Below, piece after piece: positions 41,721 to 64,000 of a stretch of DNA of 64,000 bases (positions are counted from its first letter, which is position 1; the number at the start of each line of letters is the position of its first letter). Under the pieces are notes generated by a model. The model was not told where the DNA came from, made no database searches, and saw only the letters and a list, made by a program, of their open reading frames with translations. Source of the DNA: Agromyces archimandritae (GTDB lineage: Bacteria; Actinomycetota; Actinomycetes; Actinomycetales; Microbacteriaceae); assembly GCF_018024495.1 (NCBI RefSeq), contig NZ_CP071696.1, forward strand, positions 2,294,001-2,358,000, read 5' to 3'. The position numbers and the translations under genes are program-made.

Positions 41721-41817
41721 GGAGTCGAGCCTAAGCGGCGCCGAGGGCGGCCGTGAGCCCGCCCCCTGGCGGAGGGTGGCCGGCCGTGAACAGAACGACC
41801 GAAACCCGATCCCGTGA

Positions 41818-41854
41818 CCAGAATCTGGCCCTCCGCCGATCGGGCTCATAGCAT
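41818..41854 (+). promoter_or_regulatory. Palindrome and -10 box upstream of tctC
   Basis: CCAGAATCTGG (41818-41828) is an 11-bp palindrome 20 bases upstream of TAGCAT (41849-41854, TAnnnT). It is a candidate site for the CitB-type regulator encoded on the other side of the gap; assignment by position only. Confidence 0.4.
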
Positions 41855-41900
41855 CGGCGAGGCCCGGCGGAGCGCCGGCCACGGACTCGAGGAGGAGCCC

Positions 41901-42911: not shown

Positions 42912-43450
42912 CGTCCTCCCCGGACATCGCCGGTGCGGCGGGCGCGGAAGCACGCGCCCGCCGCACCGGCGAACTCGTCTTCGTCGGGGTGCTGTTCGCG
43001 TTCGCGGTGTTCGCGCTCGCCCTGAGCTTCACGATCCGCGAGCCGATCGGCTCGTCGAACGTGCTCGGCGCCCGCGTGCTGCCGATCATCGTGACCGTGT
43101 TCATGGCGGTCACCTCGGCGATCGCGTTCATCGCCGTGCTGCGCGGCGACGTCGGCGAAGCAGACGAGGGCGAAGACGTCGACCCGGACGTGCGCACCTC
43201 GTGGCGGACCGTGCTGTTCATCGTGCTCGCCTTCGCCTCGCTGATCGTGGTGATCCCGCTCGCGGGGTGGCCCCTGGCGGTCGTCGTCCTCTTCACCTGC
43301 TCCTCGCTCGCGCTCGGCGGGAAGAGCTGGTGGAAAGCCGCGCTGATCGGCCTCGGCCTCGGCCTGCTCACGCAGATCCTGTTCGGAACGCTGCTCGGGC
43401 TCTCCCTGCCGGCGTTCGGCGACTACCTGCCGGAGGTGTTCGGTGGATAG
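42908..43450 (+). CDS. tctB: Tripartite tricarboxylate transporter small membrane subunit
   Basis: 180 residues with four hydrophobic segments ([19 protein letters not shown] first), the usual TctB size and topology. It overlaps tctC by four bases and tctA by eight. Sequence conservation in this family is low; the identification rests mostly on position and topology. Confidence 0.88.
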
Positions 43451-48441: not shown

Positions 48442-49626
48442 GTGAATTCCCCTGTCAATGCCGAGGTCGTCGGTCGGCTCGGCCGCCTCGGCCTCAACCG
48501 ACCCGACTCGATCAACGCCATCGACCTCGAGATGATGCACGCCCTGACCGAGACGCTCGACGCGTGGGCGACGGACCCGGCCGTGTCGGCGATCCTGCTC
48601 GAGGGCCTCGGCGACTACGGCTTCTGCGCCGGCGGCGACTTCCGTGAGATCCTGACCCGCGCGGCCGAGGGCATGACGATCGGCACCGTGTTCTTCCGCG
48701 ACGAGTACCGCCTCATCGCCAAGCTCGCCGAGCACCCCAAGCCGATCGTGTCGATCATGCACGGCATGACGATGGGCGGCGGCATCTCGCTGGCCGGTCA
48801 TGTGGGCCTCAGGGTCGTCAGCGACCGCGTCAAGCTCGGCCAGCCCGAGACCGGCTACGGCTTCGTGCCCGACGGCGGGGCGACCTGGCGCCTCGCGCGC
48901 ACGCCCGGCGAGATCGGCACGTATCTCGCCCTGAACTCGGCAGATATGGCGGCGGCGGATGCCGTGGCGCTCGGCTTCGCGGATGCCGTCGTGCCCGCGG
49001 CGCGCATCGGGGAGCTGACCGCCGCCCTCGCCGATGCGGTGGATACGGCCGCTCCCGAGGAGAAGGTGCGGCGTTTCGCCGTCTCGCCGGGGGAGTCGGC
49101 GGTGATGGCCCGCCGCGACTGGATCGACGCCTGCTATTCGGCCGACACCGTGCAGGAGATCCTGGAGCGCCTGTGGGTGTTCTCGAGCGGCCGCGAGGTC
49201 GGGGGGCTGCGGGCATCGGAGTCGATGGATCCGGATGCCGCCGCGCACGCGACCGAAGCCGCCGACACGCTGCTCGGGCTCTCGCCGACGGCGCTCGTGG
49301 CGACCCTGCGCTCGGTGCGGGCCGCGCGCGACGGCGAGACCCTGCGCGAGGCGCTCGAACGCGAGCTCCGCCTCGCCCGCTGGTTCACCACGCAGCCCGA
49401 CATGTTCACCGGCGTCCAGGCCCTCGTCGCGCAGAACACCGAGACGCTGCACCAGGCGGTCGTGCCCGACTGGAAGCCGGCCGACCTCTCCGCCGTCGAC
49501 GTCACCGACATCGTCGCCGCGATGGAGACCCCGCTGCGGCACAGCGTGTTCCCGCGCGGGCTCGGCATCCCCGAGGATGAGCAGGCCGCGGCCGCGGCCG
49601 CCGGGCGGGGGGCGCGCCGGGCGTAG
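48442..49626 (+). CDS. Enoyl-CoA hydratase/3-hydroxyisobutyryl-CoA hydrolase family protein
   Basis: 394 residues, crotonase superfamily, HIBCH-like size and architecture. The oxyanion-hole segments are FCAGGDFREI and MHGMTMGGGISLAGHVGLRV; the catalytic Glu lies in LGQPETGYGFVPDGGA, and the C-terminal extension has FTTQPDMFTGVQALV. The start is GTG 48442, with TAGCGT (48429-48434) 7 bases upstream, fitting a leaderless transcript; GTG 48433 is in frame. Predicted to hydrolyse a branched 3-hydroxyacyl-CoA, which agrees with the catabolic genes that follow. Confidence 0.85.
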   Translation: MNSPVNAEVVGRLGRLGLNRPDSINAIDLEMMHALTETLDAWATDPAVSAILLEGLGDYGFCAGGDFREILTRAAEGMTIGTVFFRDEYRLIAKLAEHPKPIVSIMHGMTMGGGISLAGHVGLRVVSDRVKLGQPETGYGFVPDGGATWRLARTPGEIGTYLALNSADMAAADAVALGFADAVVPAARIGELTAALADAVDTAAPEEKVRRFAVSPGESAVMARRDWIDACYSADTVQEILERLWVFSSGREVGGLRASESMDPDAAAHATEAADTLLGLSPTALVATLRSVRAARDGETLREALERELRLARWFTTQPDMFTGVQALVAQNTETLHQAVVPDWKPADLSAVDVTDIVAAMETPLRHSVFPRGLGIPEDEQAAAAAAGRGARRA

Positions 49627-49718
49627 AGGCGGTCGAGGCGGGGCGCGCCGGCGGGCTGCGCCCCGGTTTCGCGCGCCCCGGCATCCGCTCACGATCGGCG
49701 ATTCCGCGCGCCGCTCTT

Positions 49719-49759
49719 GTGAACCTGCATTCACTTCCGTAAGTTAACGCACGTTCACC
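49719..49759. promoter_or_regulatory. Two TetR-type operators upstream of lcp
   Basis: GTGAACCTGCATTCAC (49719-49734) and GTTAACGCACGTTCAC (49744-49759), starts 25 bp apart. Both fit the 16-bp palindrome found at 51149, 56884 and 59740. Confidence 0.75.
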
Positions 49760-49844
49760 AGTGCGGATGGATTCGCGGGTTCCACGGTGCCGCCCCGACG
49801 ACGGCGCTTGCGGGACCGTCCGCTGTTCACAAGCAGGAGGCAAC

Positions 49845-51074
49845 GTGGCCGACATGAACCGACGCACCGTCTTGACGCTGGGAGCAGCCCTCGGGCTGGG
49901 CGGCGTCTTCGCACCGCAGGCCGCACAGGCCGCGCAGGCAGGCAGGTCCCCGTGGACCTGGTCGCCGACGCGATCCGTGCTCGGCAGCGGATCAGGAACC
50001 GACCCGCAGTGGGTCTGGGACGACGACATCGACCGCATCATGGCGAACGTCATCGACAGCGGCCAGGTGCCGGCCGTCAACCAGGCGATCCTGCCGTGGG
50101 TGCACAACAACCAGCCCCTGCCCACGGGGCTGCCGCCCGAACTGTCGACCTGGCTGCAGTCGAGCACGCAGATGCCCGAGTGGGCCGACATGACCAAGCT
50201 CCGCCGTGCGGCCGACTTCAACCGGCGCAAAGACCTCTACCTCTTCGTCATCTACGGCATCGGCGGCGGCATCATGTCGACCGTCATCCCCCGCGAGGCG
50301 AAGTCGGTGTACTGGTCCAAGGGCGGCGCCGACATGCAGGACCGCGCGGCGAAGACCTTCTCCTTCGGGTACGACCTGAGCGACATCGACGCCTTCGAGC
50401 AGAGCGGCGAATTCGTGGTCACCTCGAACAAGACGCGCATGGTGCACGCCGCCGTGCGGCATCTGCTGCCGCAGTCGCCGCACTGGCAGGCGGTCGCCGA
50501 CGAGGAGATCCCGATCTCGAACCAGGACATCCTCGTCACCTTCCACTCCACGGGCACCTTCGCGCACCGGAAGCTCCGCGAGTGGCGGGTGCCGATGACG
50601 CGCGCCGACGAGGAGGCCTTCCTGCACTCGTGGCAGGTCGCCCTGCACTTCCTCGGCGTGCGCGACGAGTACATCCCGGCGACGTGGGATGCCGCGCATG
50701 CGCAGGCCGCCGAGATCCTCACCCCGCAGCTGACCTGGACCCAGGAGGGGCAGGAGCTCGCCGAGGTGCTCCTCGGGCTGACCGCGCAGGTCGACCTGGG
50801 CGTCACGCGCGGCTTCCTGAACGAGTTCGTGCGCTACCAGCTCGGCAACGAGGTCGGCGACTGGCTCGGGCTGCGCCGCGACTACGTGGCCGCGGCGACC
50901 ATCCGCGCCGGGTGGCCGACGTACATCGCCTTCCGCGAGGGGCTGCTGCCGGTCGCGCCGGTGAGCTTCTACATGTTCGACCAGTTCGTGCGTGCGCTCG
51001 CGATGGCGTTCCTGAACCGCGGGGAGTCGGGGACGACGACGCCCATCACGATCCCCGACATGAACCGCCCGTGA
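49845..51074 (+). CDS. Latex-clearing-protein-like oxygenase (Lcp/rubber oxygenase, DUF2236)
   Basis: 409 residues. GTG 49845 is fixed by AGGAGG five bases upstream. A twin-arginine signal (MNRRTVLTLGAALGLGG, cut after AQA) sends it out folded, as for Lcp heme proteins. The rubber-oxygenase domain carries IPREAKSVYWSKGGADMQDR and KTRMVHAAVRHLLPQSPHW. The residues I recall as conserved in Lcp of Streptomyces K30 (E148, R164, K167, T168, H198, H203) fall at E151, R167, K170, T171, H201 and H206, a constant offset of three, and H201 would be the heme ligand. It should split polyisoprenoid double bonds to aldehyde and ketone ends. Another prenyl substrate is possible. Confidence 0.85.
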   Translation: MADMNRRTVLTLGAALGLGGVFAPQAAQAAQAGRSPWTWSPTRSVLGSGSGTDPQWVWDDDIDRIMANVIDSGQVPAVNQAILPWVHNNQPLPTGLPPELSTWLQSSTQMPEWADMTKLRRAADFNRRKDLYLFVIYGIGGGIMSTVIPREAKSVYWSKGGADMQDRAAKTFSFGYDLSDIDAFEQSGEFVVTSNKTRMVHAAVRHLLPQSPHWQAVADEEIPISNQDILVTFHSTGTFAHRKLREWRVPMTRADEEAFLHSWQVALHFLGVRDEYIPATWDAAHAQAAEILTPQLTWTQEGQELAEVLLGLTAQVDLGVTRGFLNEFVRYQLGNEVGDWLGLRRDYVAAATIRAGWPTYIAFREGLLPVAPVSFYMFDQFVRALAMAFLNRGESGTTTPITIPDMNRP

Positions 51075-51078
51075 AGAC

Positions 51079-51125
51079 GACGGGGCGGGTGGATGCCGTG
51101 CGGCACGGCATCCACCCGCCCCGTC
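51079..51125 (+). terminator. Very strong hairpin after lcp, GTGGATGCC palindrome family
   Basis: Perfect 23-bp arms (51079-51101 and 51103-51125) around a single central G; the core reads GTGGATGCCGTGC. It begins four bases after the lcp stop and separates lcp from the racemase operon. A TCTGTTC tail follows. Confidence 0.85.
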
Positions 51126-51148
51126 TGTTCGACGACCCGACCCAAAAA

Positions 51149-51164
51149 GTGAATCCGGATTCAC
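51149..51164. promoter_or_regulatory. TetR-type operator upstream of the racemase operon
   Basis: Perfect palindrome GTGAATCCGGATTCAC, 85 bases before the racemase start. Best-conserved copy of the regulon motif. Confidence 0.8.
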
Positions 51165-51249
51165 GTTTTCGGCTTGACCGCGCGGCCGCCGATGGCAGAA
51201 TGGCCGCGAGGCGACCCGACGGTCGCCCTGATCCCGAAGGAGTGATCGC

Positions 51250-52473
51250 GTGAGCACGGCACCGGCGGCGAAGGCGGCCCCCTACGGCGGGCCCGCCGCG
51301 CCGGGCGCGGCATCCGCCGGGGAACCGGCCGCCCGGCCCGCTGCACGGACCGCGGCATCCGCCCGGGAGTCGGCCGCAGGCCCGACACCCCTCGCCGGCA
51401 TCCGCGTCGTCGAGTTCGCCGGCGCCGGCCCCGCCCCCTTCGCCGCGATGCTCCTCGCCGATCTCGGCGCCGACGTCGTGCGCATCGAGCGCCCCGAGCC
51501 CGGCGAACTGCCCGCCGACCCGGCCGACACCATGCTCCGCCGCCGCACGATCGTCGTCGCCGATCTGAAGGACGCCGACGACCTCGCCCGGGTGCGCGCG
51601 CTCGCCGCAAGCGCCGACGTGCTCGTCGAGGGCTTCCGGCCCGGCGTCATGGAACGCCTCGGGCTCGGCCCCGAAGAACTGCGGACCGCCAACCCCCGGC
51701 TCGTCTACGGCCGCATGACCGGCTGGGGGCAGAGCGGGCCGTGGGCGGATCGCGTCGGCCACGACCTCGGCTACCTCTCGATCACGGGGATGCTGCACGC
51801 CATCGGCCCCGCCGAGCACCCGGTCGTGCCGCTGAACCTCGTCGCCGACTACGGCGGCGGCGCCATGTTCCTCGTCACCGGCATCCTCGCCGCCCTCCTC
51901 GAACGCACCCGCACCGGGCGCGGCCGCACCATCGACGCCGCCATGATCGACGGCGTCGCCCAGCTCGGCCACGCCCAGTTCTCCCTCGCCGCTTCCGGGC
52001 GGTGGCGCGACGAACGGGCCGCGAACCTCATCGACGGCGGCGCCCCCTTCTACACCGTGTACGCGTGCGCCGACGGCCGGCACGTCGCCGTCGCCGCCCT
52101 CGAGGCACGCTTCTACGGTGCCCTGCTCGACGGTCTCGGCCTCGACGCGGCAACCCTGCCGGCGCGCGACGACCCCGCGAACTGGCCCGAGCTGCGGGGC
52201 CGCCTCGCCGCCGCGTTCGCGAGCCGCACCCGCGACGAGTGGGCCGCCGCCTTCGACGGCACCGAGGCGTGCGTGACGCCCGTGCTGTCGATGCGCGAGG
52301 CCCCGGCGCACCCGCAGGCCGTCGCCCGCGGCATCCACCTCGACCATCACGGTCGGCTCGCGCCGGCCGCCGCCCCGCGCTTCGACGGCGCCGCACCCGG
52401 CCGGACCCCCGCCCGGCCCGCGCGCAGCACCCTCGACGACGCCCTCGCCGCCTGGACCATGGAGGAAGCATGA
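51250..52473 (+). CDS. Alpha-methylacyl-CoA racemase/CaiB-family CoA transferase
   Basis: 407 residues, CaiB/BaiF family. After a 48-residue Ala-rich extension (low complexity) come LAGIRVVEFAGAGPAPFAAMLLADLGADVVRIE, the family Asp in RVGHDLGYLSITGML, and GGGAMFLVTGILAALLERTRTGRG. The GHDLNY-like motif and overall order resemble alpha-methylacyl-CoA racemases, which invert methyl-branched acyl-CoAs before beta-oxidation. GTG 51250 with GAAGGAG upstream. Overlaps etfB (ATGA). Confidence 0.87.
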   Translation: MSTAPAAKAAPYGGPAAPGAASAGEPAARPAARTAASARESAAGPTPLAGIRVVEFAGAGPAPFAAMLLADLGADVVRIERPEPGELPADPADTMLRRRTIVVADLKDADDLARVRALAASADVLVEGFRPGVMERLGLGPEELRTANPRLVYGRMTGWGQSGPWADRVGHDLGYLSITGMLHAIGPAEHPVVPLNLVADYGGGAMFLVTGILAALLERTRTGRGRTIDAAMIDGVAQLGHAQFSLAASGRWRDERAANLIDGGAPFYTVYACADGRHVAVAALEARFYGALLDGLGLDAATLPARDDPANWPELRGRLAAAFASRTRDEWAAAFDGTEACVTPVLSMREAPAHPQAVARGIHLDHHGRLAPAAAPRFDGAAPGRTPARPARSTLDDALAAWTMEEA

Positions 52474-53246
52474 GAATCCTGGTGCTCGTCAAAGACGTGC
52501 CCGACACCTACGGCGCCCGCGCCCTGCACCTCGAGACGGGGCTCGCCGAACGCGAGGCCGGCGAGCGGGTGATCGACGAGATCGACGAACGCGCCCTGGA
52601 GCTCGCGCTGCGCCACCGCGACGAACACCCCGGCACCGAGGTGGTCGCCCTCGCCATGGGGCCGGCCGCCGCCGCGTCGAGCCTGCGCCGCGCCCTCGCG
52701 ATGGGCGCCGGGCGGGCCGTGCACGTCGTCGACGAGGCCCTGCTCGGGGCCGACCTCGGCCTCACCGCCGAGACCCTCGCCCGCGCGATCGACCGCATCG
52801 GCGCCGAGCTCGTCATCGCCGGCGACCGGTCCACCGACGGGGGAGGCGGCGTCGTGCCGGCGATGATCGCCGAACACCTCGGCATCGCCCAGCTCACCGG
52901 GCTCGACTCCGTCGAGATCGGCGACGGCCGCGTCGACGGCGTACGCGCGACCGAATACGGGGCCGTGGCCGCGGGCGCCGAACTGCCCGCGATCGTCTCG
53001 GTCACCGAGAAGCTGCCCGACGCCCGACTCGCGAGCTTCAAGGGCATCATGGCCGCCAAGAAGCAGACCATCGAGACCCTGGACCTCGCCGAGCTCGGCA
53101 TCGACGCCGACGACCACGCATCCGCCCGATCGATCATGATCGCCGTCGCGCCGCGGCCGCCGCGCGCAGCCGGCGTGAAGATCATCGACGAAGGCGACGC
53201 CGGCGAACGCCTCGCCGAGTTCCTCGCCGCCGAACGCCTCGCCTGA
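52470..53246 (+). CDS. etfB: Electron-transfer flavoprotein beta subunit
   Basis: 258 residues. Signature MRILVLVKDVPDT at the N-terminus, AMGAGRAVHVVDE and the typical EtfB loop DRSTDGGGGVVPAMIAEHLG. The C-terminal dehydrogenase-recognition region includes KLPDARLASFKGIMAAKKQTIETL. Accepts electrons from acyl-CoA dehydrogenases with EtfA. Confidence 0.94.
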   Translation: MRILVLVKDVPDTYGARALHLETGLAEREAGERVIDEIDERALELALRHRDEHPGTEVVALAMGPAAAASSLRRALAMGAGRAVHVVDEALLGADLGLTAETLARAIDRIGAELVIAGDRSTDGGGGVVPAMIAEHLGIAQLTGLDSVEIGDGRVDGVRATEYGAVAAGAELPAIVSVTEKLPDARLASFKGIMAAKKQTIETLDLAELGIDADDHASARSIMIAVAPRPPRAAGVKIIDEGDAGERLAEFLAAERLA

Positions 53247-53315
53247 GCACCGGACGCCGACCACCGCCAGCCCCGCCCGCTCGCGGGCCCAGCCCCACCC
53301 ATGAAGGAAGCCGAG

Positions 53316-54311
53316 ATGCCAGACCCAGCCCCCGTCCTCGTGCTGCTCGACGTCGCCCCCGACGGCGGCCTCGCCGGCACGGCGGCCGGCCTCCTCGCCG
53401 CCGCCGACGCGATCGGCGAGCCCGTCGCCCTCATCGCCCCCGCCGACGAGTCCGCCGGCGATGCCCTCGCCGCCGCGGCCGCCGCCCTCGGCGCGGCACG
53501 CGTGCTGCTCGCCGCCGGGGCTGCGCCCGTCGCCGGCGGCACCGTCGCCGTGCCGCTCGCCGACGCCCTGGACACCGCCGCCGCGGCCGTCGGACCGGTC
53601 GCCGTGCTCGCGGCGCACACGCTCGACGCGCGCGAGGCCGCCGCCCGCTACGCCGTGCGGGCACGGGCGGCGCTCGCCGTCGACGCCGTCGGAGTCGACC
53701 GCGACGAGGAAGGCGTCATCGTCCGGCACTCCGCATTCGGCGGCGCCTACGACGTCGTCTCGGCGGCCACCCACGGCGCCCCCGTCATCACGATCCGCCC
53801 CGGTGCGGTCACGGCCCGTGCGGCGGCGCGCCCGACCGTCGCCGAACGTCTCGCGGTGCCGCCGAGCGGTCGGCCCGCGGCCCGTATCGCCTCGGTCGAA
53901 CCACGCGTCGCCGACAGCACCCGCCCCGAACTCCGCGGTGCCGAGAAGGTCGTCTCGGGCGGACGCGGGCTCGGCTCCGCCGAGGGCTTCGCGCTCGTCG
54001 AACGGCTCGCGGATGCGCTCGGCGCCGCGGTCGGCGCCTCGCGCGCGGCCGTCGACGCCGGCTACGTCGCCCAGCAGAGCCAGGTCGGTCAGACCGGCGT
54101 CTCGGTGTCGCCGCGCCTGTACATGGCCCTCGGCATCTCGGGCGCGATCCAGCACCGTGCCGGCATGCAGACCTCGCAGACCATCGTCGCGATCAACACC
54201 GACGCCGACGCGCCCATCTTCGACATCGCGGACTTCGGCATCGTCGGCGACGTGTTCCGGGTGGTTCCCCAGCTCATCGCCGCCCTCGAATCGGAGCGGG
54301 TGTCCTCGTGA
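53316..54311 (+). CDS. etfA: Electron-transfer flavoprotein alpha subunit
   Basis: 331 residues. FAD-binding C-terminal domain: [54 protein letters not shown] and the end [26 protein letters not shown] 53316 with GGAAG upstream; an ATG 15 bases earlier is in frame. Its stop overlaps the next gene's GTG start. Confidence 0.94.
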
Positions 54312-55726
54312 GCGCTCCGACGCTCCGCCGCGGGCTGCCGCGGGTGCCGGGCGGCGAGCCGTGGCCGCCGGTGGGGGAGGTGCCGGGGTCGGCCGCTTCA
54401 GGCCTCGACGCGGAGTCCGCTGCGGTGGATGCCTCGGGCACCGTTGCTGCGGGCGCCGCCGGTGTCGCGGCGGTCGATGCCGCGGGCGCGGTCGCGGTGC
54501 CTGCATCGGGGCCTGCGGGGGTGGACGACCCTGGTGCCGGTGCTGCCGCCGATTCTTCGGGGGTGGATGCCGCGGGCGCCGTCGCAGGTATCGCCGGCCC
54601 GGACGTCGCGGTCTCCGCATCGGCGGGGTCCGCCGGGGCCCCGCTCCGTCGCGGACTGCCGCGGGTGCCCGGCGGCGAGCCGTGGCCGCCCGCCGGATTC
54701 GCGCCGGCGCCGCCGGTCTCGGGCGCGCCCGCCGTCGCACCTGCGGCATCCACCGCCCCTGAGGCATCCACCGCCCCAACGGCATCCACTGCGCCCCCGG
54801 CATCCACTGCGCTCTCGGCATCCACCGCCCCCGAAGCCACTGCCCGCCGCCGGGCCGCCCGCTGGGCGCTGGTGGCCGCGGGCGTCGTCGTCGCCGTGCT
54901 CGCGGTGGTGCTGCTCGCGCGCTGGCTGCGCGGCCTCGAGCCCGTGCAGGCGTTCCTCGCCGAATACCCCGGCGAGGCGCCGCTGCCGGCCGCGGCGCCC
55001 GTCGGCATCCCGGCCTGGCTCGGCTGGCAGCACTTCTGCAACGTGTTCCTCATGGTCCTGATCGTGCGTTCGGGCCTGCAGGTGCGCCGCGAACGGCGGC
55101 CGGCGGCGTACTGGGCGTCGCGTCGCCGGCCCGAGCGGAAGATCCCGCTGAACGCGTGGTTCCACCAGAGCCTCGACGTGCTGTGGCTGGCGAACGGCCT
55201 CGTGTTCGTCGTGCTGCTCGCGGTGACGGGGCAGTGGATGCGGATCGTGCCGAGCGACTGGGCCGTCGTGCCGAACGCGGCGTCTGCGCTCCTGCAGTAC
55301 GCCTCGCTCGACTGGCCGGTCGAGCACGGCTGGACGAACTACAACGCCCTGCAGCAGCTCGCGTACTTCGCGACGGTGTTCCTGGCGGCGCCGCTCGCGG
55401 CCGTGACGGGGGTGCGGATGTCGGGCTGGTGGCCGGCACGTGCCGAACGGCTGAACCGGGCGTATCCGATCGAGCTCGCGCGGGCGATCCACTTCCCGGT
55501 CATGCTGTATTTCGTCGCGTTCGTCGTGATGCACGTCGGCCTCGTGTTCGCGACCGGGGCGTTGCGCAACCTGAACCACATGTACGGCGGGCAGGATGCG
55601 GTGAACTGGGTCGGCTTCGCCGTCTTCTGCGCCTCCCTGCTCGTCATCGCGGCCGCGTGGATCGCCGCCCGTCCGCTCGTGCTCGCGCCCATCGCGGGCC
55701 TGTTCGGGCGGGTGAGCCGGCGATGA
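54308..55726 (+). CDS. Membrane cytochrome b-type protein with duplicated N-terminal motif
   Basis: 472 residues. The N-terminal 180 residues are soluble and low-complexity, with the motif [16 protein letters not shown] at residues 6-21 and again at 113-128, then five AST(A)P-type hexapeptides (147-177) encoded by 18-bp DNA repeats. The rest has about five spans of a cytochrome b561/b6-like fold: [55 protein letters not shown]. The His residues in these spans could bind two hemes. GTG start overlaps etfA, so it probably takes ETF electrons to the membrane quinone pool (inference). Confidence 0.8.
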
Positions 55727-56844
55727 GCGAGCAGACGCGCGAGGCCGGGCCGGTGCTCACCGAGCGGCCCGACGGCCGCGACGTCGCGGCGACCGCGGAA
55801 GAGGCGGCGCGGATGCCGGTGCCGCCGCTGCTCGTCCTCGACGCCGTGACCGCCTTCCTCGACGAGCGCGGCCTCGGCGACGGTCCGGTGGAGTGGGCGC
55901 GGATCGGCGACGGGCAGTCGAATGCGACCTTCCTGCTGCGCCGCGGCGGCGTCGAGGCGGTGCTGCGTCGCGGCCCGCGGCCGCCGCTGCCGCCGTCGGC
56001 GCACGACATGCTGCGCGAGGCGCGCATCCAGCTGCTGCTCCGGGATGCCGGGGCGTCGGTCGCCGAGGTGCTCGCCGTCTGCGAGGACCCGGAGCCCCTC
56101 GGGGTGCCGTTCTACCTCATGCGCCGTCTGCACGGCGACGTCATCACCGACGAGGTGCCGGCCCGTTTCGACACCGCCCGGGACCGCCGCGGCGTCGCCG
56201 AGGCCGCCGTCGATGCGCTCGCCGCCCTGCACGCGATCGACGTCCGCGAGGGTCCGCTCGCCGGTTACGGTCGGCCCGAGGGGTACCTCGAACGGCAGGT
56301 GTCGCGCTTCGCGGGCCTGTGGGGCAAGGTGTCGCGCCGCGAGCTGCCGCTCGTCGGCGAGCTCGCCGAACGGCTGGCGGCGACGATGCCGGCGACGCAG
56401 CGCCACGCGCTCGTGCACGGCGATTTCCGGCTCGGCAATCTCATGTTCGGCACCGGGCGGCGGCCCGAGGTGGCCGCCGTGCTCGACTGGGAGCTGTCGA
56501 CGCTCGGCGATCCGCTCGCCGATCTCGGGTATCTCGTCGCGACCTGGTCCGAGGCGTCGGGCGGCGTGCCGACGACGATGGAGCTCTCGCCGGTGACGGC
56601 CCGCCCGGGCTTCCTCGACCGGGCGGGGCTCGCAGAGCGCTACGAGCGGCTGACGGGTGCGGATGCGAGCCGGCTCGGCTGGTACCGCGCGCTCGCACTG
56701 TGGAAGTCGGCGGTGTTCAGCGAGGCGATCTACACGCGTTGGCTGGACGGGGAGCGCCCGGACGACACGACGTTCGCCCCGGGCCTCGAGGCCGGCGTGC
56801 CGCGTCTGCTCGAGGTCGCCGCCGAGGCGCTCGCCGAACGCTGA
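55723..56844 (+). CDS. APH-family phosphotransferase (acyl-CoA catabolism type)
   Basis: 373 residues. Aminoglycoside-phosphotransferase fold with catalytic D234 (VHGDFRLGNLMF) and metal-binding D255 (AVLDWELSTLGDPLADLGYL), plus the N-lobe nucleotide loop IGDGQSNATFLLRR. This version (DWELSTLGDP) is the ACAD10/11 or LvaA type that phosphorylates hydroxyacyl-CoAs, more than antibiotic kinases. Overlaps the cytochrome gene (ATGA); an acyl-CoA dehydrogenase lies at the right edge. A role on 4-hydroxyacyl-CoA intermediates is inference. Confidence 0.85.
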   Translation: MSEQTREAGPVLTERPDGRDVAATAEEAARMPVPPLLVLDAVTAFLDERGLGDGPVEWARIGDGQSNATFLLRRGGVEAVLRRGPRPPLPPSAHDMLREARIQLLLRDAGASVAEVLAVCEDPEPLGVPFYLMRRLHGDVITDEVPARFDTARDRRGVAEAAVDALAALHAIDVREGPLAGYGRPEGYLERQVSRFAGLWGKVSRRELPLVGELAERLAATMPATQRHALVHGDFRLGNLMFGTGRRPEVAAVLDWELSTLGDPLADLGYLVATWSEASGGVPTTMELSPVTARPGFLDRAGLAERYERLTGADASRLGWYRALALWKSAVFSEAIYTRWLDGERPDDTTFAPGLEAGVPRLLEVAAEALAER

Positions 56845-56883
56845 GGGCGCGCCTCTTGCCGCAGGGGCCGCCGCACGGCTAAT

Positions 56884-56899
56884 GTGAATCAGCATTCAC
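56884..56899. promoter_or_regulatory. TetR-type operator upstream of the aldehyde dehydrogenase
   Basis: GTGAATCAGCATTCAC, 51 bases before the dehydrogenase start. One of the five regulon sites; the arms GTGAAT/ATTCAC are perfect. Confidence 0.8.
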
Positions 56900-56949
56900 T
56901 TGATGCCGGATCCACACCAGCCCACCCGTTCAACGTCGAAGGGACGGCC

Positions 56950-58443
56950 ATGACCCTCATCGCCGACGGCTCCGCCGAACTGACCTCCACCGATCCCCGC
57001 GACGGCTCCGTCGTCGCCGCATACCCGCTCGCGTCGCCTGCCGACGTCGAACGTGCCGTCTCCGAGGCCCGCGCGGCCGCGGAGAGCTGGCGCGCACTCG
57101 GCCCCGGCGGCCGCCGCGAGGCACTCCTCGCCTGGAAGGCCGAGATCGCCGCCGGCGCCCGCGAACTCGCCGGCGTCATCTCCCGCGAGACCGGCAAGAC
57201 GCCCGACGACGGCGTGCTCGAGATCACCCTCGCCCTCACCCACCTCGACTGGGCCGCCAAGCATGCCGAGAAGGTGCTCGCCCGCCGGAAGGTGCCCTCG
57301 GGGCTCGCCAGCTACAACCAGTCGGCGAGCGTCGGCTACGAGCCCTACGGCGTCGTCGGCGTCATCGGGCCGTGGAACTACCCCGTCTACACCCCCATGG
57401 GATCCATCTCCTACGCGCTGGCCGCCGGCAACGCGATCGTCTTCAAGCCGAGCGAGCTCTCCCCGGCCACCGGCCGCTGGCTCGCCGACGCCTGGCGCCG
57501 CGCCGTACCGCAGAGGGCCGCGTTCACCGTCGTCATCGGCGACGGGGCCACCGGTGCGGCCCTCGCCGCATCCGACGTCGACAAGATCGCCTTCACCGGT
57601 TCGCCCGGCACCGCCCGGCGCGTCATGGCCGCCTGCGCCGAACGCCTCACGCCGGTCGTCATCGAGGCCGGCGGCAAGGACGCCATGATCGTCGCCCGCG
57701 ACGCCGACCTCGACCAGGCCGTCGCCTTCGCCGTATTCGGCGGCATGGGCAACGCCGGCCAGACCTGCGCCGGCGTCGAACGCGTCTACGTCGAAGCGCC
57801 CGTCCACGACGAGTTCCTCGAGCGCCTCGCCGCTGCGGTCGCGGCGCTGAAGCCCGGCCCCGAGGCATCCGCGAGCTACGGGCCGATGACCATGTCGAAG
57901 CAGCTCGGCATCGTCTCCGCCCACATCGGCGAAGCCATCGAACGCGGGGCCCGGGCCGTCGCCGGCGGCGCCGACGCCGTGCAGGGCGCCTACGTCGCCC
58001 CCGTCGTGCTCACCGAGGTGCCCGGGGACTGCGCGGTCGTGCGCGAAGAGACCTTCGGGCCGGTGCTCGTCGTCGAGCGCGCCGCCTCCCTGGACGACGC
58101 CGTCGCGAAGGCGAACGACACCGCCTACGGTCTGGCCGCATCCGTCTTCACCCGCGATCTGAAGCAGGGGCGGCGGATCGCCCTCCGGCTGCGGGCCGGC
58201 GCCGTCAGCGTGAACTCCGTGCTCGGCTTCGCCGGCATCCCCTCGCTGCCGTTCGGCGGCCGCGGCGAGTCGGGCTTCGGCCGCATCCACGGCGCCGACG
58301 GCCTGCGCGAGTTCTCGGTCGCGAAGTCGGTGGCCGTGCAGACGAGCAAGCCCTTCATCGATCTGCTGCGCATCGACCGCTCGGCACGCGACATGCACCT
58401 CGCCGAGCGGATGCTGCACATGCTGCACGCCAAGCGGAAGTGA
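56950..58443 (+). CDS. NAD(P)-dependent aldehyde dehydrogenase
   Basis: 497 residues. Catalytic C273 (GNAGQTCAGVER), general base E239 (VIEAGGKDAMI), oxyanion N143 (GPWNYPVYTP) and Rossmann loop FTGSPGTARRV. ATG 56950 with GAAGGGA upstream. The expected substrate in this context is the long oligo-isoprenoid aldehyde released by the Lcp-like oxygenase, giving an acid for CoA activation. Convergent with the TetR gene. Confidence 0.92.
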   Translation: MTLIADGSAELTSTDPRDGSVVAAYPLASPADVERAVSEARAAAESWRALGPGGRREALLAWKAEIAAGARELAGVISRETGKTPDDGVLEITLALTHLDWAAKHAEKVLARRKVPSGLASYNQSASVGYEPYGVVGVIGPWNYPVYTPMGSISYALAAGNAIVFKPSELSPATGRWLADAWRRAVPQRAAFTVVIGDGATGAALAASDVDKIAFTGSPGTARRVMAACAERLTPVVIEAGGKDAMIVARDADLDQAVAFAVFGGMGNAGQTCAGVERVYVEAPVHDEFLERLAAAVAALKPGPEASASYGPMTMSKQLGIVSAHIGEAIERGARAVAGGADAVQGAYVAPVVLTEVPGDCAVVREETFGPVLVVERAASLDDAVAKANDTAYGLAASVFTRDLKQGRRIALRLRAGAVSVNSVLGFAGIPSLPFGGRGESGFGRIHGADGLREFSVAKSVAVQTSKPFIDLLRIDRSARDMHLAERMLHMLHAKRK

Positions 58444-58446
58444 GGC

Positions 58447-59691
58447 TCAGCGACCCAGCGCCGCTCGCACCAGGCATGCGACCCGCGCCCGCGTCGCCGG
58501 CGCGTCGTCGAAGTGCACGAGCCGGCCGAGGTCGACGACGACGTTGAGCCCGGCGTGCACCCGGAACCTCGCCGCCTGCGCGGTGAGATCCGGGTGTACG
58601 GCCCGCAGCAGGCCGACCCACTCGTCGACGTGCCGGCGCTGGATGCCCCGCAGCCGCTCCTGCTCGTCGCCCGGCAGCGCGCCGATGTCGGAGAAGTACA
58701 CGCTCATGAGCTCGTGGTGCGTGAAGCTGTGGGCGATGTAGCCGTCGATGAGGCGGTCGAGGGCCTCGGCGGGGCCCGCGGCGCCCTCGAGGGCGTCGGC
58801 GGTCGTCGCCCCGAGGCGTTCGGCGGCCCGCACGCAGGCCTCGAGCAGCAGCTCGGACTTGCTCGCGAAATGCCGGTAGAAGCCCGACTGGGTGAGGCCG
58901 ACGGCGGCGCTCAGTTCCTCGATCGAGGTCTCGTGGTAGCCGCGCTGCTGGAACAGGCGGAGCCCTTCGCGCACGATCAGCTCGCGCTTGGATGCCGGCG
59001 GAACGCCGGGGGTGTCGGGCGCGGCGGATCCGGCCGGCGCGGGAAGGCGGGCGTCGGCGACGTCACGGGCCGAATCGCCGAGCAGTTCGGCGAGCTGGCG
59101 GCGCCCCAGGCTCGCGTGGTGCGAGGTGATCGAGGCGACGACGCTGAGCGCGGCGGCTGCGATCATGCGCGCGTCGTCCTCGCCGAGCCCCGGCCGCATC
59201 CGCTGCACGGCGCGGCGGACGCGCGCGCCGAGCTCGGCGAAGTCCCCGCCGAGCCGACGCCGGTCGTCGGGGTGCAGGTAGCGGCCCTCCCAGCGGTAGA
59301 GGCCGCCGGTGCGGCGGTTGTCGATCGTGGCCTCGACGAGGGCGTGGACGAGGGCGTCGTAGTCGGCGCCGGCCGGGTCGGTGCGGGCGGGATCGGTGCT
59401 CGCGGCATCCACTGCGGGCCCCTCGCCGCCCGCGAAGGGCTCGGTGACCTCGAGGAGCCCGTGCACGAGGCGCTCGGCGGCATCGAGGAAGAGGGCGTAC
59501 TTGTTCGGGAAATGCCGGTAGAGGGCCGGGGCCGAGATGCCCACCTCGGCGGCGACCTCGCCGAGGCTCACCTGGTGGTAGCCGCGTTCCGAGAACAGGG
59601 TCGCGGCGGCCATCGCGATGCGCTGCTTGCGGTCCTTCGGGCGGGTGCGGCGGGGCGCGGCGGTGGATGCGGTCGCCGACGTCGTGCCCAT
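58447..59691 (-). CDS. Double-length TetR-family regulator with two DNA-binding heads
   Basis: 414 residues, about twice the family's usual length. First TetR HTH near residues 23-70 (RIAMAAATLFSERGYHQVSL, GISAPALYRHFPNKYALF) with its own ligand-domain-like region, then a second complete TetR HTH near 235-282 (IVREGLRLFQQRGYHETSIE, GLTQSGFYRHFASKSELL). ATG 59691 is 6 bases after a minus-strand TAGCCT (59703-59698), so it is probably leaderless. An operator lies in the divergent gap (59740). Likely regulator of the lcp regulon. Confidence 0.9.
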   Translation of the reverse strand: MGTTSATASTAAPRRTRPKDRKQRIAMAAATLFSERGYHQVSLGEVAAEVGISAPALYRHFPNKYALFLDAAERLVHGLLEVTEPFAGGEGPAVDAASTDPARTDPAGADYDALVHALVEATIDNRRTGGLYRWEGRYLHPDDRRRLGGDFAELGARVRRAVQRMRPGLGEDDARMIAAAALSVVASITSHHASLGRRQLAELLGDSARDVADARLPAPAGSAAPDTPGVPPASKRELIVREGLRLFQQRGYHETSIEELSAAVGLTQSGFYRHFASKSELLLEACVRAAERLGATTADALEGAAGPAEALDRLIDGYIAHSFTHHELMSVYFSDIGALPGDEQERLRGIQRRHVDEWVGLLRAVHPDLTAQAARFRVHAGLNVVVDLGRLVHFDDAPATRARVACLVRAALGR

Positions 59692-59739
59692 CCCGACAGG
59701 CTAGCGCAGGCCGCTCGGCCCGCCATGAGCGGCAACGAT

Positions 59740-59755
59740 GTGATTCCGGATTAAC
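59740..59755. promoter_or_regulatory. TetR-type operator between the regulator and the ligase
   Basis: GTGATTCCGGATTAAC, two mismatches to the perfect site at 51149. Placed 37 bases upstream of the TetR promoter and about 95 bases before the ligase start, so it can act on both. Confidence 0.7.
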
Positions 59756-59850
59756 AAAAGTCGTGACATCCGGCCCGCGGCCGTGCATACTGGGGCCACC
59801 TGCGTCGCCCGCGAGCGGCGACGGTACAGCGTCGTACGAAGGGATTCCGA

Positions 59851-61479
59851 ATGAGCACCGAAGCCCCGCCCCTCGCCGAGGCGGCACCCCGCACAGAAAC
59901 CGCACCCGGCCCCGGGCCCTCCGCCATCCCGGCGGCCGCCCGCCGCAACCACTGGATGAACCAGGTCGCCGCCCACGCCGCCAACCGGCCCGACTCCCTC
60001 GCGTTCCGCTACCTCGACCGCGACACGAGCTGGGGGCAGGTGCACGAGCACGTCAACGCCCTGGCCGCAGCCCTCCGCCGCCGCGGCGTCGAACACGGCG
60101 ACCGGGTCCTCCTCCTCACCCTGAACAGCCCCGAGGTCGTCGAAGCGGTCTTCGCGATCAACACCCTCGGCGCCATGGCCGTGCCGATCAACATCCGCCT
60201 CTCGCCCGCCGAGATCGCCTACATCGTCGACGACGCCGACGCCGGCGTCATCCTCGTGGATGCCCCGCTCGCGCCCCTCGTCGGCGCCGTCGCCGCCCTC
60301 ACCACGCGCATCGAGCAGGTCCTCGTCTTCGGCGAAGCCGGCGACGGGCAGGAATCCGTCGCGGACCTCGTCGCCGAAGACCCCGGCGACTTCACCGCCC
60401 CCGACGTCGCCGAAGACACCACCGCGCTCATCATGTACACCTCGGGCACCACCGGGCGGCCCAAGGGCGCCATGCTCGACCACCTGAACCTGTACGCGCA
60501 GGCCATCACCTGCATCCGCGCGAACGGCATCGTCGACGAGAGCGACATCGCCTTCCTCACCGCACCGCTCTTCCACATCGCCGGCCTCGGTTCGATCGCA
60601 CCGAACTTCATCATCGGCATCCCGACGATCTTCCACCCCCTCGGCGCCTTCGATCCCGCCGCGATCGTCGACGCCTGGGAGCAGTCGCGCGCGACGATCG
60701 TCTTCAACGTGCCCCAGCAGTGGCAGGCGATCTGCGCCCTGCCCGGCATCGAGGACAGGGACCTCGCGCTCCGCATCATCAGCTGGGGCGCCGCGCCGGC
60801 CACCGACGGCGTGCTGCGGGCGATGGAGGAGAAGTTCCCGGACGCGATGAACGTCGCCGTCTTCGGCCAGACCGAGATGTCGCCGATCACCTGCGTGCTG
60901 CGCGGCGCCGACTCGCGCCGCAAGATCGGCTCCGTCGGCAAGCCGATCCCCACCATCCAGACCCGCGTCGTCGACGAGGACTTCCACGACGTCCCCGTCG
61001 GGGAGGTCGGCGAGATCGTCTACCGGGGGCCGACGCTCATGAAGGGGTACTGGCGGAAGCCCGATGAGACCGCGGCGGCCTTCGAGGGCGGCTGGTTCCA
61101 CTCCGGCGACCTCGTTCGGCAGGACGAGGAGGGCTTCGTCTGGGTCGTCGACCGCAAGAAGGACATGATCATCTCCGGCGGCGAGAACGTCTACTGCGCC
61201 GAGGTCGAGAACGCCCTCGACGCCCACCCCGACATCCTCGAGGTCGCCGTCTACGGTCGAGCCGACGAGCGCTGGGGCGAGGTCCCGGTCGCGGCGATCG
61301 CGCCGATGCCGGGCGCGGCGGCGCCGACCGTCGACGAGCTCGAGGCCTTCCTCGACGGCCGCCTCGGCCGTTTCAAGCGGCCCAAGCACGTCGTCGTGGT
61401 CGAGGCGCTGCCCCGCAACGGCGGCGGCAAGGTCGACAAGGGCGTGCTGCGCGCAAGCGACCCGGTGACCGCCCGGTGA
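59851..61479 (+). CDS. Acyl-CoA ligase (AMP-forming)
   Basis: 542 residues, ANL superfamily. Adenylation motifs: MYTSGTTGRPKGAMLDH (A3), VFGQTEMSPITC (A5), GWFHSGDLVRQDEEGFVWVVDRKKDMIISGGENVY (A7-A8) and catalytic Lys in LPRNGGGKVDK. ATG 59851. Expected to activate the acid produced by the aldehyde dehydrogenase. Stop overlaps the alcohol dehydrogenase start (GTGA). Confidence 0.93.
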   Translation: MSTEAPPLAEAAPRTETAPGPGPSAIPAAARRNHWMNQVAAHAANRPDSLAFRYLDRDTSWGQVHEHVNALAAALRRRGVEHGDRVLLLTLNSPEVVEAVFAINTLGAMAVPINIRLSPAEIAYIVDDADAGVILVDAPLAPLVGAVAALTTRIEQVLVFGEAGDGQESVADLVAEDPGDFTAPDVAEDTTALIMYTSGTTGRPKGAMLDHLNLYAQAITCIRANGIVDESDIAFLTAPLFHIAGLGSIAPNFIIGIPTIFHPLGAFDPAAIVDAWEQSRATIVFNVPQQWQAICALPGIEDRDLALRIISWGAAPATDGVLRAMEEKFPDAMNVAVFGQTEMSPITCVLRGADSRRKIGSVGKPIPTIQTRVVDEDFHDVPVGEVGEIVYRGPTLMKGYWRKPDETAAAFEGGWFHSGDLVRQDEEGFVWVVDRKKDMIISGGENVYCAEVENALDAHPDILEVAVYGRADERWGEVPVAAIAPMPGAAAPTVDELEAFLDGRLGRFKRPKHVVVVEALPRNGGGKVDKGVLRASDPVTAR

Positions 61480-63089
61480 CCGCTGCGCTCGCCGCCGTCG
61501 TCGCCGGGCGGGGGCACGCGCCCGTGCCCTCGCCCGTGCGCCTCGACGAACTCCGGGACGACGAGGTGCTCGTGCGCATCGCCGCCTCGGGGATCTGCCA
61601 CACCGACCTCACGGCGATCGACGGCGCGGTGCCGTTCGGCTTCCCCGCCGTGTTCGGGCACGAGGGCGCCGGCGTCGTCGAGGCGACCGGATCGGCGGCG
61701 GCGGGCGTGGAACCGGGCGACCGGGTCGTGCTCACCTTCGATTCGTGCGGGGTGTGCGCGCGCTGCGCGAGCGGGCACCCCGCGTACTGCGAGCAGTTCG
61801 GGCGGCGGAACTCGGCCGGGGCCAGGCCCGACGGCTCGGCGACCCTGCGGGGCGAGGGCGGCGAGGTCATCTCCGGGTCGTGGATGGCGCAGTCCTCCTG
61901 GGCGACCTTCGCGATCGCACGGGCCTCGAACGTCGTGCCGATCGACGACGACGTTCCCTTCGCGATCGCCGCGCCTCTCGGCTGCGGGGTGCTGACGGGC
62001 GCCGGCACGGTGCTCGGCACCCTGCGGCCCGGCCCCGGCGACCGGCTCGTCGTCCTCGGTGCCGGCGCCGTCGGGCTCTCGGGGATGCTCGCCGCCCACG
62101 TGAGCGGATGCGGCGATGTCGTCGTCGTCGAACCCGATGCCGGACGACGGACGCTCGCCCTCGAACTCGGGGCGACGGCCGCCGTCGAACCCGAGGAGCT
62201 CGCCGCCCTCCTCCGCGCCACGCGGCCGGCCGACCGGGTGCTGGACACCGTCGGCACCCCGGCCGCGGTCGAGGCGGCGCTCGCCGCGCTGGCCTCGCCG
62301 GGCGCCTGCGCGACGGTCGCCCTGCGGTCCGGCGCGAATCCCGTGACCGTGAGCCAGTCGCGCCTGCTCTGGGGGCGCTCGATCTCGGGTGTCATCGAGG
62401 GCGACGCGCGGCCCGCCGCATTGGTCCCGATGCTCGCCCGGCTCTGGCGGGCCGGGCTCTTCCCGGTCGACCGCTTCATCCGCACCTTCGCCTTCGGAGA
62501 CGTCGACGAGGCGGTCGCCGCCGCGCGCTCGGGGTCGGCGGTGAAGCCGGTGCTCGTCATGGACCCCGCCGATGCGGTGCCGCCGGCACCGGCCCCGACC
62601 ACCGTCCCCGCACGCCTTCGGGCGCTCGCGGCGCCCGGTGTGCGGGCCGACGTCGACGAGCTGCTCGCGATCTGGGACGTGCTGCCGACCGTCGGCCCGG
62701 CCGAGCTCCGCGGGTTCTGGCGCGGGCGTGCGTTCGACACCGGGCACGGGATGCTCCGCACGCTCGAGCGGGCCGCGTGGGTCGGCAAGCATTTCGTCTC
62801 GGACGAGACGGTGCGGCCTATCGTGTGCGACGACGGCGCCGGCGGCCTCGTGGCCGACCTGCGCCTTTCCCGCGGCGGCGGGGCGAGCCTCGTGCGCATG
62901 GAGCATCGCGGCCGCGTGACGGCGACGATGCTCTACGACCGGATGCCGGTGCACGACCATTTCGTGCGGGTCGACGCCGACACGCTGCTCGGCGTCATGG
63001 CGGGGGAGGGCACGCTCGACGCCGGGCGCCCGTTCCTCTTCCTGCTCGAGCGTGCGGAGGACCCGGGCGAGATCCCGAGCCGCGGCTGA
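61476..63089 (+). CDS. Zinc alcohol dehydrogenase fused to a GXWXG/DUF4334 domain
   Basis: 537 residues. Residues 1-368 are a zinc-dependent medium-chain dehydrogenase: catalytic zinc C41, H62 and E63, structural zinc C91, C94, C97 and C105, NAD site VLGAGAVGLSGMLA. After a Pro-rich linker (about 370-385), residues 390-530 form a separate domain with RGFWRGRAFDTGH near 411-423, which is the GXWXG motif, and a DUF4334-like second half (VTATMLYDRMPVHDHFVRVD). Such a fusion is unusual. GTG 61476 overlaps the ligase stop. The gene ends convergent to the SDR gene. Confidence 0.88.
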   Translation: MTAALAAVVAGRGHAPVPSPVRLDELRDDEVLVRIAASGICHTDLTAIDGAVPFGFPAVFGHEGAGVVEATGSAAAGVEPGDRVVLTFDSCGVCARCASGHPAYCEQFGRRNSAGARPDGSATLRGEGGEVISGSWMAQSSWATFAIARASNVVPIDDDVPFAIAAPLGCGVLTGAGTVLGTLRPGPGDRLVVLGAGAVGLSGMLAAHVSGCGDVVVVEPDAGRRTLALELGATAAVEPEELAALLRATRPADRVLDTVGTPAAVEAALAALASPGACATVALRSGANPVTVSQSRLLWGRSISGVIEGDARPAALVPMLARLWRAGLFPVDRFIRTFAFGDVDEAVAAARSGSAVKPVLVMDPADAVPPAPAPTTVPARLRALAAPGVRADVDELLAIWDVLPTVGPAELRGFWRGRAFDTGHGMLRTLERAAWVGKHFVSDETVRPIVCDDGAGGLVADLRLSRGGGASLVRMEHRGRVTATMLYDRMPVHDHFVRVDADTLLGVMAGEGTLDAGRPFLFLLERAEDPGEIPSRG

Positions 63090-63125
63090 CGGCTGGGCGC
63101 CCGGCCCCGGTGACGCGGTGCCCGC

Positions 63126-63875
63126 TCAGGCCTGGAACAGGCTGCCCGGCCGGTTCACCGCCAGGCGGGGCACGGCGGCGTGCCGCGAGAGCCGGGTGAG
63201 GGCGACGGCGAGCTCGGCGATGTCGTCGGCGCGGATCATCTCCTCGGCGGGGATCTCGTCGGTCTTCCAGGCGGCGAGTTCGGTGTCGACGTATCCCGGG
63301 CAGATCGCCGTGGCGCTCACGCCGCGGGTGCCCTCTTCGAGGCACACCGATTCGCAGAGGGAGACGAGTGCGGCCTTCGTCGCGGAGTATGCGGCGAGGT
63401 CGGGTTCGGGCATGAGGCCGGCGAGCGAGGCGAGCGCGATGATGCGGGCGCCGCGCGCGTCGAGTGCGGCGGTGCGGCGCAAGAGCGGCAGCGCGGCTGA
63501 GACGAGGGCGAACGGGCCGCGGAAGTTCAGGGCGACGTGTTTGTCGACGCGGCGCAGCGGGGTCTCTGCGATGGGGCTGCCGAAGCCCATGCCGGCGTTC
63601 AGCACGAGGGCGTCGAGGCGGCCGTGCTCCGCTTCGTGCCGGGCGAGGAGCGCGGCGAGGGCATCGGGGTCGGCGGCGTCGGCGGGCACCGCGACGACGC
63701 GGGTGCCGGGGCCGGCGAGCTCGGCGGCGGCTGCTTCGAGGGGTTCCGGGGTGCGGGCCGAGAGGGTGAGCGCGTAGCCTTCGGCGGCCAGCCGCCGGGC
63801 GACGGCGAGGCCGATGCCGCGCGAGGCGCCGGTGATGAGTGCGGCGCGCGGGGCGGGCTCAGCGGGCGAGGTCAT
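63126..63875 (-). CDS. Short-chain dehydrogenase/reductase
   Basis: 249 residues, classical SDR. Cofactor motif ALITGASRGIGLAVARRL, NAG motif ALVLNAGMG, catalytic Ser-Tyr-Lys as ALASLAGLM and YSATKAALVSL. ATG 63875 follows GAGGAAGGA by 7 bases; the ATG at 63893 is internal to the upstream dehydrogenase gene. It overlaps the end of that gene by 17 bases, so both are one minus-strand operon. May act as a 3-hydroxyacyl-CoA dehydrogenase. Confidence 0.9.
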   Translation of the reverse strand: MTSPAEPAPRAALITGASRGIGLAVARRLAAEGYALTLSARTPEPLEAAAAELAGPGTRVVAVPADAADPDALAALLARHEAEHGRLDALVLNAGMGFGSPIAETPLRRVDKHVALNFRGPFALVSAALPLLRRTAALDARGARIIALASLAGLMPEPDLAAYSATKAALVSLCESVCLEEGTRGVSATAICPGYVDTELAAWKTDEIPAEEMIRADDIAELAVALTRLSRHAAVPRLAVNRPGSLFQA

Positions 63876-64000
63876 GGCGGCGTCCTTCCTCATGGGCGCG
63901 CACGGCGCGCCGGGCGATCGACCAGCGATGGGTTTCGCTGGATCCGTCGTAGATGCGGAACGGGCGCACCTCGCGCCAGTACCGGGACAGCAGGAGTTCC
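63859..64000 (-). CDS. Acyl-CoA dehydrogenase, C-terminal fragment at window edge
   Basis: Minus-strand frame open to the right edge, ending at TGA 63859-63861. The visible end is ELLLSRYWREVRPFRIYDG then SSETHRWSIARRAVRAHEE. RIYDGSSETHRWSIARR is the conserved C-terminal FAD-contact segment of acyl-CoA dehydrogenases, including the ACAD10/11 type. Most of the gene lies beyond the window. It would donate electrons to EtfBA encoded at 52-54 kb. Confidence 0.85.
   Translation of the reverse strand, partial: ELLLSRYWREVRPFRIYDGSSETHRWSIARRAVRAHEEGRRHDLAR

Follow-up and report, generated by a model that had tools for sequence, protein, structure and literature searches.

Previous studies of rubber degradation describe an oxygenase, the latex clearing protein (Lcp), whose products carry a CHO-CH2- end and a -CH2-COCH3 end (PMC9871534; papers are cited here by PMC number and for the accessible parts of their text), and published rubber models let these fragments enter beta-oxidation from the aldehyde end. 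The closest described regulators are LcpR-BA3(2) of Streptomyces coelicolor and ACTI_69510 of Actinoplanes OR16; the latter is a duplicated TetR protein that binds lcp promoters, and a palindrome of the form GTTAAY...TCAC is known for both (PMC7413915). Separately, the Lva/ACAD11 route is a known means of returning the 4-hydroxy form of 4-oxopentanoyl-CoA to beta-oxidation (PMC12440821). Here we describe a locus of the soil actinobacterium Agromyces archimandritae (Microbacteriaceae) in which relatives of these systems lie side by side. The window, meaning the whole 64,000-nucleotide stretch that was analysed, covers bases 2294001-2358000 of a single-contig 3.45-Mb genome (contig NZ_CP071696.1), and positions below count from its first base. 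In it an lcp gene lies adjacent to a catabolic cluster with a racemase, EtfBA, a cytochrome b, an APH-fold kinase, an aldehyde dehydrogenase (ALDH), an acyl-CoA ligase, an SDR oxidoreductase and the end of an acyl-CoA dehydrogenase gene (ACAD1), together with a double TetR regulator. We consider it probable that this is an Lcp-centred regulon for polyisoprenoid catabolism with a levulinyl-CoA branch. To the narrower proposal, that a dedicated levulinyl-CoA module (the SDR plus an ACAD11-type kinase/ACAD pair) clears the methyl-ketone end within a two-operator network shared with the oxygenase, we would give even chances.

The lcp gene (49845-51074, plus strand) is the only stretch of the genome that matches MPAB_Lcp_cat at E 0.001, and by sequence and modelled fold its product is a true Lcp. 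The first-pass annotation, made from the letters of the window, had proposed an Lcp homologue, and this holds up in comparison with LcpK30 of Streptomyces sp. K30. A phmmer search of the PDB matched 5o1l/5o1m (LcpK30) along the entire protein (E 1.4e-131), and Foldseek superposed a model of the protein, whose mean pLDDT is only 74.4, on 5o1l/5o1m with TM scores of 0.85 by query and 0.92 by target. The haem-pocket residues R164, K167, T168 and H198 of LcpK30 (PMC6311187) are invariant in a 22-sequence alignment, at their LcpK30 numbers, when counting starts at the ATG of MNRRTVL. Earlier, the key residues had been placed at a constant offset of three; the residue mapping stands, and the offset itself arose because a GTG start three codons upstream of that ATG had been taken. 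E148, which we take to be a further LcpK30 residue, also has the same number in the window protein. At the sequence level this is therefore not a non-Lcp DUF2236 protein devoid of haem residues. The N-terminus (NRRTVLTLG) looks Tat-like by eye, as in LcpK30, and haem binding, export and cleavage of polyisoprene are the predicted functions. Unlike LcpK30, to which it is about 51% identical, the window Lcp comes from a host in whose family the literature searched shows no pure culture proven to degrade rubber, and, in contrast to the Lcp of Streptomyces sp. K30, it has no oxiAB among the neighbours scanned by Pfam.

What ties the neighbouring genes to lcp? Scanning for the palindrome GTGAAY-N4-RTTCAC, with the reversed pattern as control, we found exact operators before lcp (GTGAACCTGCATTCAC, 49719-49734) and before ALDH (GTGAATCAGCATTCAC, 56884-56899), and a perfect palindrome before the racemase operon (GTGAATCCGGATTCAC, 51149-51164). 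A second site before lcp has one mismatch (GTTAACGCACGTTCAC, 49743-49758) and resembles the GTTAAY...TCAC sequence that precedes lcp in many genomes. Between the double TetR and ligase genes lies a possible degenerate operator with two mismatches (59740-59755), which is weak alone, about three sites of that level being expected by chance in the window. Genome-wide there are five exact sites, three of them in the cluster, and ten with at most one mismatch, four of them in the cluster, against one for the reversed control. The arrangement recurs in related genomes. In 30 Microbacteriaceae loci from lcp-bearing hosts (616 kb, window included), 26 sites were found, 23 of them within 300 bp upstream of cluster genes, and the reversed control gave none. 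This survey counted homologues of at least 43% identity, demanded a pyrimidine and a purine at positions 6 and 11, and excluded genes whose 300-bp upstream stretch ran off the locus. Sites stood upstream of ALDH in 12 of 12 cases, of the gene for a second regulator, the TetR_C_24 protein, in 9 of 12, of the racemase in the single case and of lcp in 4 of 14, and upstream of the alcohol dehydrogenase (ADH) in none of 4. The region between the double TetR and ligase genes held an exact or one-mismatch site in 3 of 4 loci, the window being the miss. These gene counts overlap, as ALDH and the TetR_C_24 gene, and likewise the ligase and double TetR genes, have a common intergenic region. A scan of 84 lcp promoters, which includes duplicates of two genomes and has no chance estimate attached, gave a site with at most two mismatches in 56, often as GTTAAY...TCAC, and none in 28.

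The double TetR regulator (58447-59691, minus strand) is the likely reader of these palindromes. Pfam finds two TetR_N stretches in it, and its halves are 36% identical over 91 residues (E 1.6e-13). Like LcpR-BA3(2) and ACTI_69510, it joins two TetR domains in one protein, has homologues near lcp and is accompanied by a GTTAAY...TCAC-type palindrome before lcp; what differs is that the window palindrome also precedes the racemase-kinase operon and ALDH. The likeness to LcpR-BA3 is one of domain make-up and gene setting. Homologues of 37-44% identity occur near lcp in 64 of 80 loci (flanks up to 10 kb), that is, in 64 of the 68 loci from outside the Microbacteriaceae and in none of the 12 from inside. 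Within a family sample of 398 Microbacteriaceae, 3 genomes carry lcp and 13 a double TetR, all three lcp genomes among them (Fisher p 2.7e-5); here as for ACAD1 below, at most four candidates per genome were scored and the p value ignores the relatedness of genomes. A locus of genus g74 holds a double TetR about 45% identical to that of the window and no other cluster gene in 20 kb. Judged by the operators, the surrounding genes form a regulon, and the operator is shared even where lcp is located apart from the cluster in the genome. The regulon around an Lcp homologue that had been proposed is thus supported, because Lcp identity, a shared operator and the co-occurrence of lcp and cluster come together.

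The divergent promoter between ACAD1 and ACAD2 carries a second palindrome, TTTCTAAT-N4-TDTARAAA, which is conserved in 11 of 13 loci when up to two mismatches are allowed. Here it reads TTTCTAATNNNNTDTARAAA (contig 2359171-2359190) and is the sole exact site in the genome; the pattern was derived from the same loci in which it was counted, and only this rarity is independent. The TetR_C_24 protein may be its reader.

The kinase (55723-56844, plus strand) and ACAD1 (minus strand; 3' end at 63859-64000, the gene continuing to 65070, beyond the window) are, by their diagnostic residues, a split form of mammalian ACAD11, of the kind represented by LvaA and LvaC of Pseudomonas. Enzymes of this sort take part in the degradation of 4-hydroxy acids by animals and by Pseudomonas. 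The best PDB relatives of the kinase are 9o56, 3dxp and ACAD11, and those of ACAD1 are 4hr3 and ACAD11. R626, H634 and R637 distinguish ACAD10/11 and LvaC from other ACADs and Asp753 is catalytic, while in the kinase D220 is catalytic and is joined by N225 and R176 (PMC12440821). ACAD1 aligns QVRLAPARLTHCMRW ... RIYDG with QGRLGPGRIHHCMRT ... RLADG of ACAD11, and ACAD1 retains the equivalents of R626, R631, H634, R637 and D753, as do 31 of 35 relatives of at least 300 bits. R631 is common to ACADs generally, and ACAD2 keeps it alone of the five positions. The remaining four relatives are paralogues with F, N/S/A and E where HCMR-type enzymes have H, R and D; one of these paralogues lies about 6 kb from lcp in Amycolatopsis acidicola. 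All 27 kinase homologues conserve the counterparts of D220, N225 and R176, and 26 of them an Arg-Glu pair, the last sequence being truncated; assignment of this Arg to R86, the residue beside the alpha-C glutamate, is unsure because it is not at residue 86 by count. By analogy, the predicted activity of the pair is conversion of 4-hydroxyacyl-CoA to 2-enoyl-CoA. As in the lva operon of Pseudomonas putida, where the partners are the ligase LvaE and the SDR LvaD, the kinase and an HCMR-motif ACAD are clustered with a ligase and an SDR, so that the likeness is one of gene content and motif; the window set differs in sitting inside an Lcp regulon. Mammalian ACAD10 and ACAD11 have the same diagnostic residues in both halves, whereas the window encodes two separate proteins and no fusion. 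The SDR (63126-63893, minus strand), whose first bases overlap the 3' end of ACAD1, is a candidate levulinyl-CoA (4-oxoacyl-CoA) reductase.

How might these parts work together? We propose that Lcp, once exported, would cut cis-1,4-polyisoprene or some other polyprenoid so that the fragments have an aldehyde and a methyl-ketone end. ALDH would oxidise the aldehyde and the ligase would make the CoA ester, after which ACAD2, the FadB-like enzyme, the thiolase and the racemase could break the methyl-branched chain down to acetyl-CoA and propionyl-CoA while EtfBA and the cytochrome b accept the electrons. Each isoprene unit should yield acetyl-CoA and, once the 2-methylacyl-CoA is racemised, propionyl-CoA. 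Since Lcp fragments carry a methyl-ketone end, beta-oxidation should leave the final five carbons of each internal fragment as 4-oxopentanoyl (levulinyl)-CoA, the input of the LvaA/LvaC route. The SDR would reduce this to 4-hydroxyvaleryl-CoA, the APH kinase would phosphorylate the 4-hydroxyl, and ACAD1 would eliminate the phosphate to give pentenoyl-CoA, which would return to beta-oxidation. GTGAAY-N4-RTTCAC would be the means by which the LcpR-BA3-like double TetR governs lcp, the operon running from racemase to kinase, ALDH and, perhaps, the ligase. The first-pass annotation held that every step was encoded; the families it listed are present, but the wording is too strong, for example with regard to a 2,4-dienoyl-CoA reductase.

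How closely are the kinase and ACAD1 bound to Lcp? In the family sample, where a cut of 1e-80 places the distant HCMR clade outside the count, close ACAD1 relatives occur in 9 of the 398 genomes, including all three with lcp (Fisher p 8e-6), at 63-100% identity in those three and 52-56% in the other six. Among the 80 lcp loci, 50 (49 genomes) were searched for ACAD1 at 1e-60 with up to 38 candidates scored per genome, and 35 genomes matched: 24 with a close HCMR-type ACAD1, 10 with distant ACADs and one by an F/N-S-A/E-type paralogue only. ACAD11-type enzymes are therefore present in at least 34 of the 49. The close form is found in 11 of 12 Microbacteriaceae lcp genomes, and in 21 of the 24 genomes that have it a kinase homologue lies in the same fetched stretch.

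Several findings weigh against our proposal. Six lcp-less Microbacteriaceae hold SDR-ACAD1-APH without the remaining cluster, ten lcp-less genomes of the family sample hold a double TetR, and half of the lcp genomes searched yielded no close ACAD1. The distant ACADs, at 34-36% identity, have the same five residues, so the motif is no hallmark of lcp clusters and ACAD11-type chemistry is more widely available. Of the 80 loci, a single one has ACAD1 and APH no more than 10 kb away from lcp. No LcpR-type site stands directly upstream of ACAD1 (0 of 13), ACAD2 (0 of 13), APH (0 of 10) or the SDR (0 of 5), and no Mce/MlaD protein was found in the genome. As it turns up without lcp in six genomes, and as half of the lcp genomes searched gave no close form of it, the trio is a frequent partner of Lcp systems and not a defining part. 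The distant ACADs read QARLGPGRIHHCMR, which in motif is closer to mouse ACAD11 than ACAD1 is.

The occurrence of the trio without lcp, the failure to find the close pair in half of the lcp genomes searched, its rarity beside lcp and the commonness of distant HCMR-type ACADs all favour a more general explanation, in which the polyisoprenoid regulon is real but the kinase and ACAD1 serve 4-hydroxy acids at large, with lactones, hydroxylated lipids or levulinate of lignocellulose as their source, and cluster with it since both feed the same beta-oxidation enzymes. We regard this as possible but doubtful. The window kinase closes an operon that it shares with the racemase and that is under operator control, ACAD1 relatives of at least 63% identity are confined to the three lcp genomes of the family sample, and in Actinophytocola oryzae the SDR-APH-ACAD1 trio sits between lcp genes.

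Is rubber the substrate? A second alternative to the Lcp-centred regulon with its levulinyl-CoA branch is that the specificity of Lcp has shifted to a shorter or biological prenoid, such as polyprenols, squalene or carotenoid side chains. The absence of Mce genes from the genome would suit this, as would the want of proven rubber growth by a pure Microbacteriaceae strain noted above, and the Lcp3 of Actinoplanes, which is encoded beside a similar double TetR, has a latex activity of 0.22 U/mg against 4.02 U/mg for Lcp1 (PMC7413915). However, Lcp3 of OR16 still takes up O2 with latex (PMC7413915), and the window protein has the fold and pocket residues of LcpK30 at 51% identity; we think a non-rubber substrate rather unlikely. 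Other 1,4-prenoids would in any case be expected to share the downstream pathway. Microbacterium lcp genes have been tabulated (PMC8235351), and a consortium containing Microbacterium laevaniformans caused a natural rubber weight loss of 5% (PMC10731047).

None of the 12 Microbacterium and Agromyces lcp loci compared has the catabolic cluster within its flank, yet 11 of those 12 genomes carry ACAD1 and at least part of the cluster elsewhere, the exception being a metagenome-assembled genome, and in these separate clusters the operator usually precedes ALDH. Outside the family (n=68), genes near lcp include ALDH in 22 loci, a ligase-like gene (58-64% identity) in 19, ADH or GXWXG in 19, ACAD2 (71-78%) in 14, the racemase in 8, the thiolase in 8 and FadB in 7. 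A fatty-acid or methyl-branched-acid cluster that lies beside an unrelated lcp by chance would account for its lying outside the flank in all 12 loci, but it is very unlikely, given that lcp and cluster share one operator in trans and co-occur, and that double TetR, ligase, ACAD2 and racemase genes recur near lcp outside the family.

What is new here? The suggestion of a version not yet described needs amending: a double TetR next to lcp has been published as LcpR-BA3(2)/ACTI_69510 (PMC7413915), and 19 of 80 lcp loci have ADH/GXWXG genes in the vicinity, whereas the kinase, being one half of an ACAD11/LvaAC-type pair that had gone unnamed, is relevant to novelty. In the accessible text of PMC8235351, PMC6311187, PMC9108482 and PMC10731047 the fate of the ketone end is not treated and the stem 'levulin' occurs 0 times. 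A full-text search for levulinic acid, levulinate or levulinyl-CoA with rubber returned no such proposal, only a paper on bioplastic; most subscription papers are uncovered by it, and its silence is therefore weak evidence of novelty. If our proposal is right, a levulinyl-CoA module would fill a missing last step in rubber catabolism and make Lcp cleavage and keto-end removal one regulated pathway. The locus puts forward three genes to deal with the ketone end of rubber fragments and leads one to expect, as stoichiometry, a single levulinyl-CoA from each internal fragment, while the operator sequences allow the regulon to be listed in other genomes. It would also connect the ACAD10/11 chemistry of animals to bacterial polymer degradation and point to Microbacteriaceae as possible, little-studied latex degraders.

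The remaining genes of the cluster belong to the families first assigned to them, as Pfam confirmed for the racemase, EtfBA, cytochrome b, APH kinase, ALDH, double TetR, ligase, ADH-GXWXG and SDR. On the plus strand, the racemase (51250-52473) is followed by EtfB (52470-53246), EtfA (53316-54311) and a cytochrome b561-type membrane protein (54308-55726), and stop/start overlaps couple the racemase with EtfB and, provided the GTG start of cytochrome b is correct, EtfA with cytochrome b; a further overlap couples cytochrome b with the kinase. By bit score this CoA-transferase-III protein is a racemase of the MCR/AMACR type, grouping with racemases over CoA-transferases: it scores 401 bits against 1x74, which we take to be MCR of Mycobacterium tuberculosis, and at most 120 against chains not called racemase. 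It differs from MCR in its setting, an operon with EtfBA, cytochrome b and the kinase behind an lcp-type operator. ALDH (56950-58443), the AMP-forming acyl-CoA ligase (59851-61479) and a Zn alcohol dehydrogenase fused to a lipocalin-like GXWXG-DUF4334 barrel (61476-63089) are also on the plus strand. The acyl-CoA dehydrogenase reported for the region is present, although the window holds just its 3' end; ACAD1 is followed by plus-strand genes for ACAD2, a thiolase and a FadB-like enzyme and by the minus-strand gene of the TetR_C_24 regulator.

The crotonase-type hydrolase (48442-49626) that had been counted in the pathway is indeed an ECH_2 family protein, but it probably does not belong to the system, because it has no operator upstream (0 of 1 in the operator survey), none of the 80 loci has a homologue near lcp and the cluster loci of other genomes showed none either. 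The reading frame of the cytochrome b561-type protein opens with a Pro/Ala-rich, partly repeated stretch (54308-54840), and its start codon is uncertain. Just upstream of the region, at 41814-45026, lie TctC/TctA genes of a tripartite tricarboxylate transporter.

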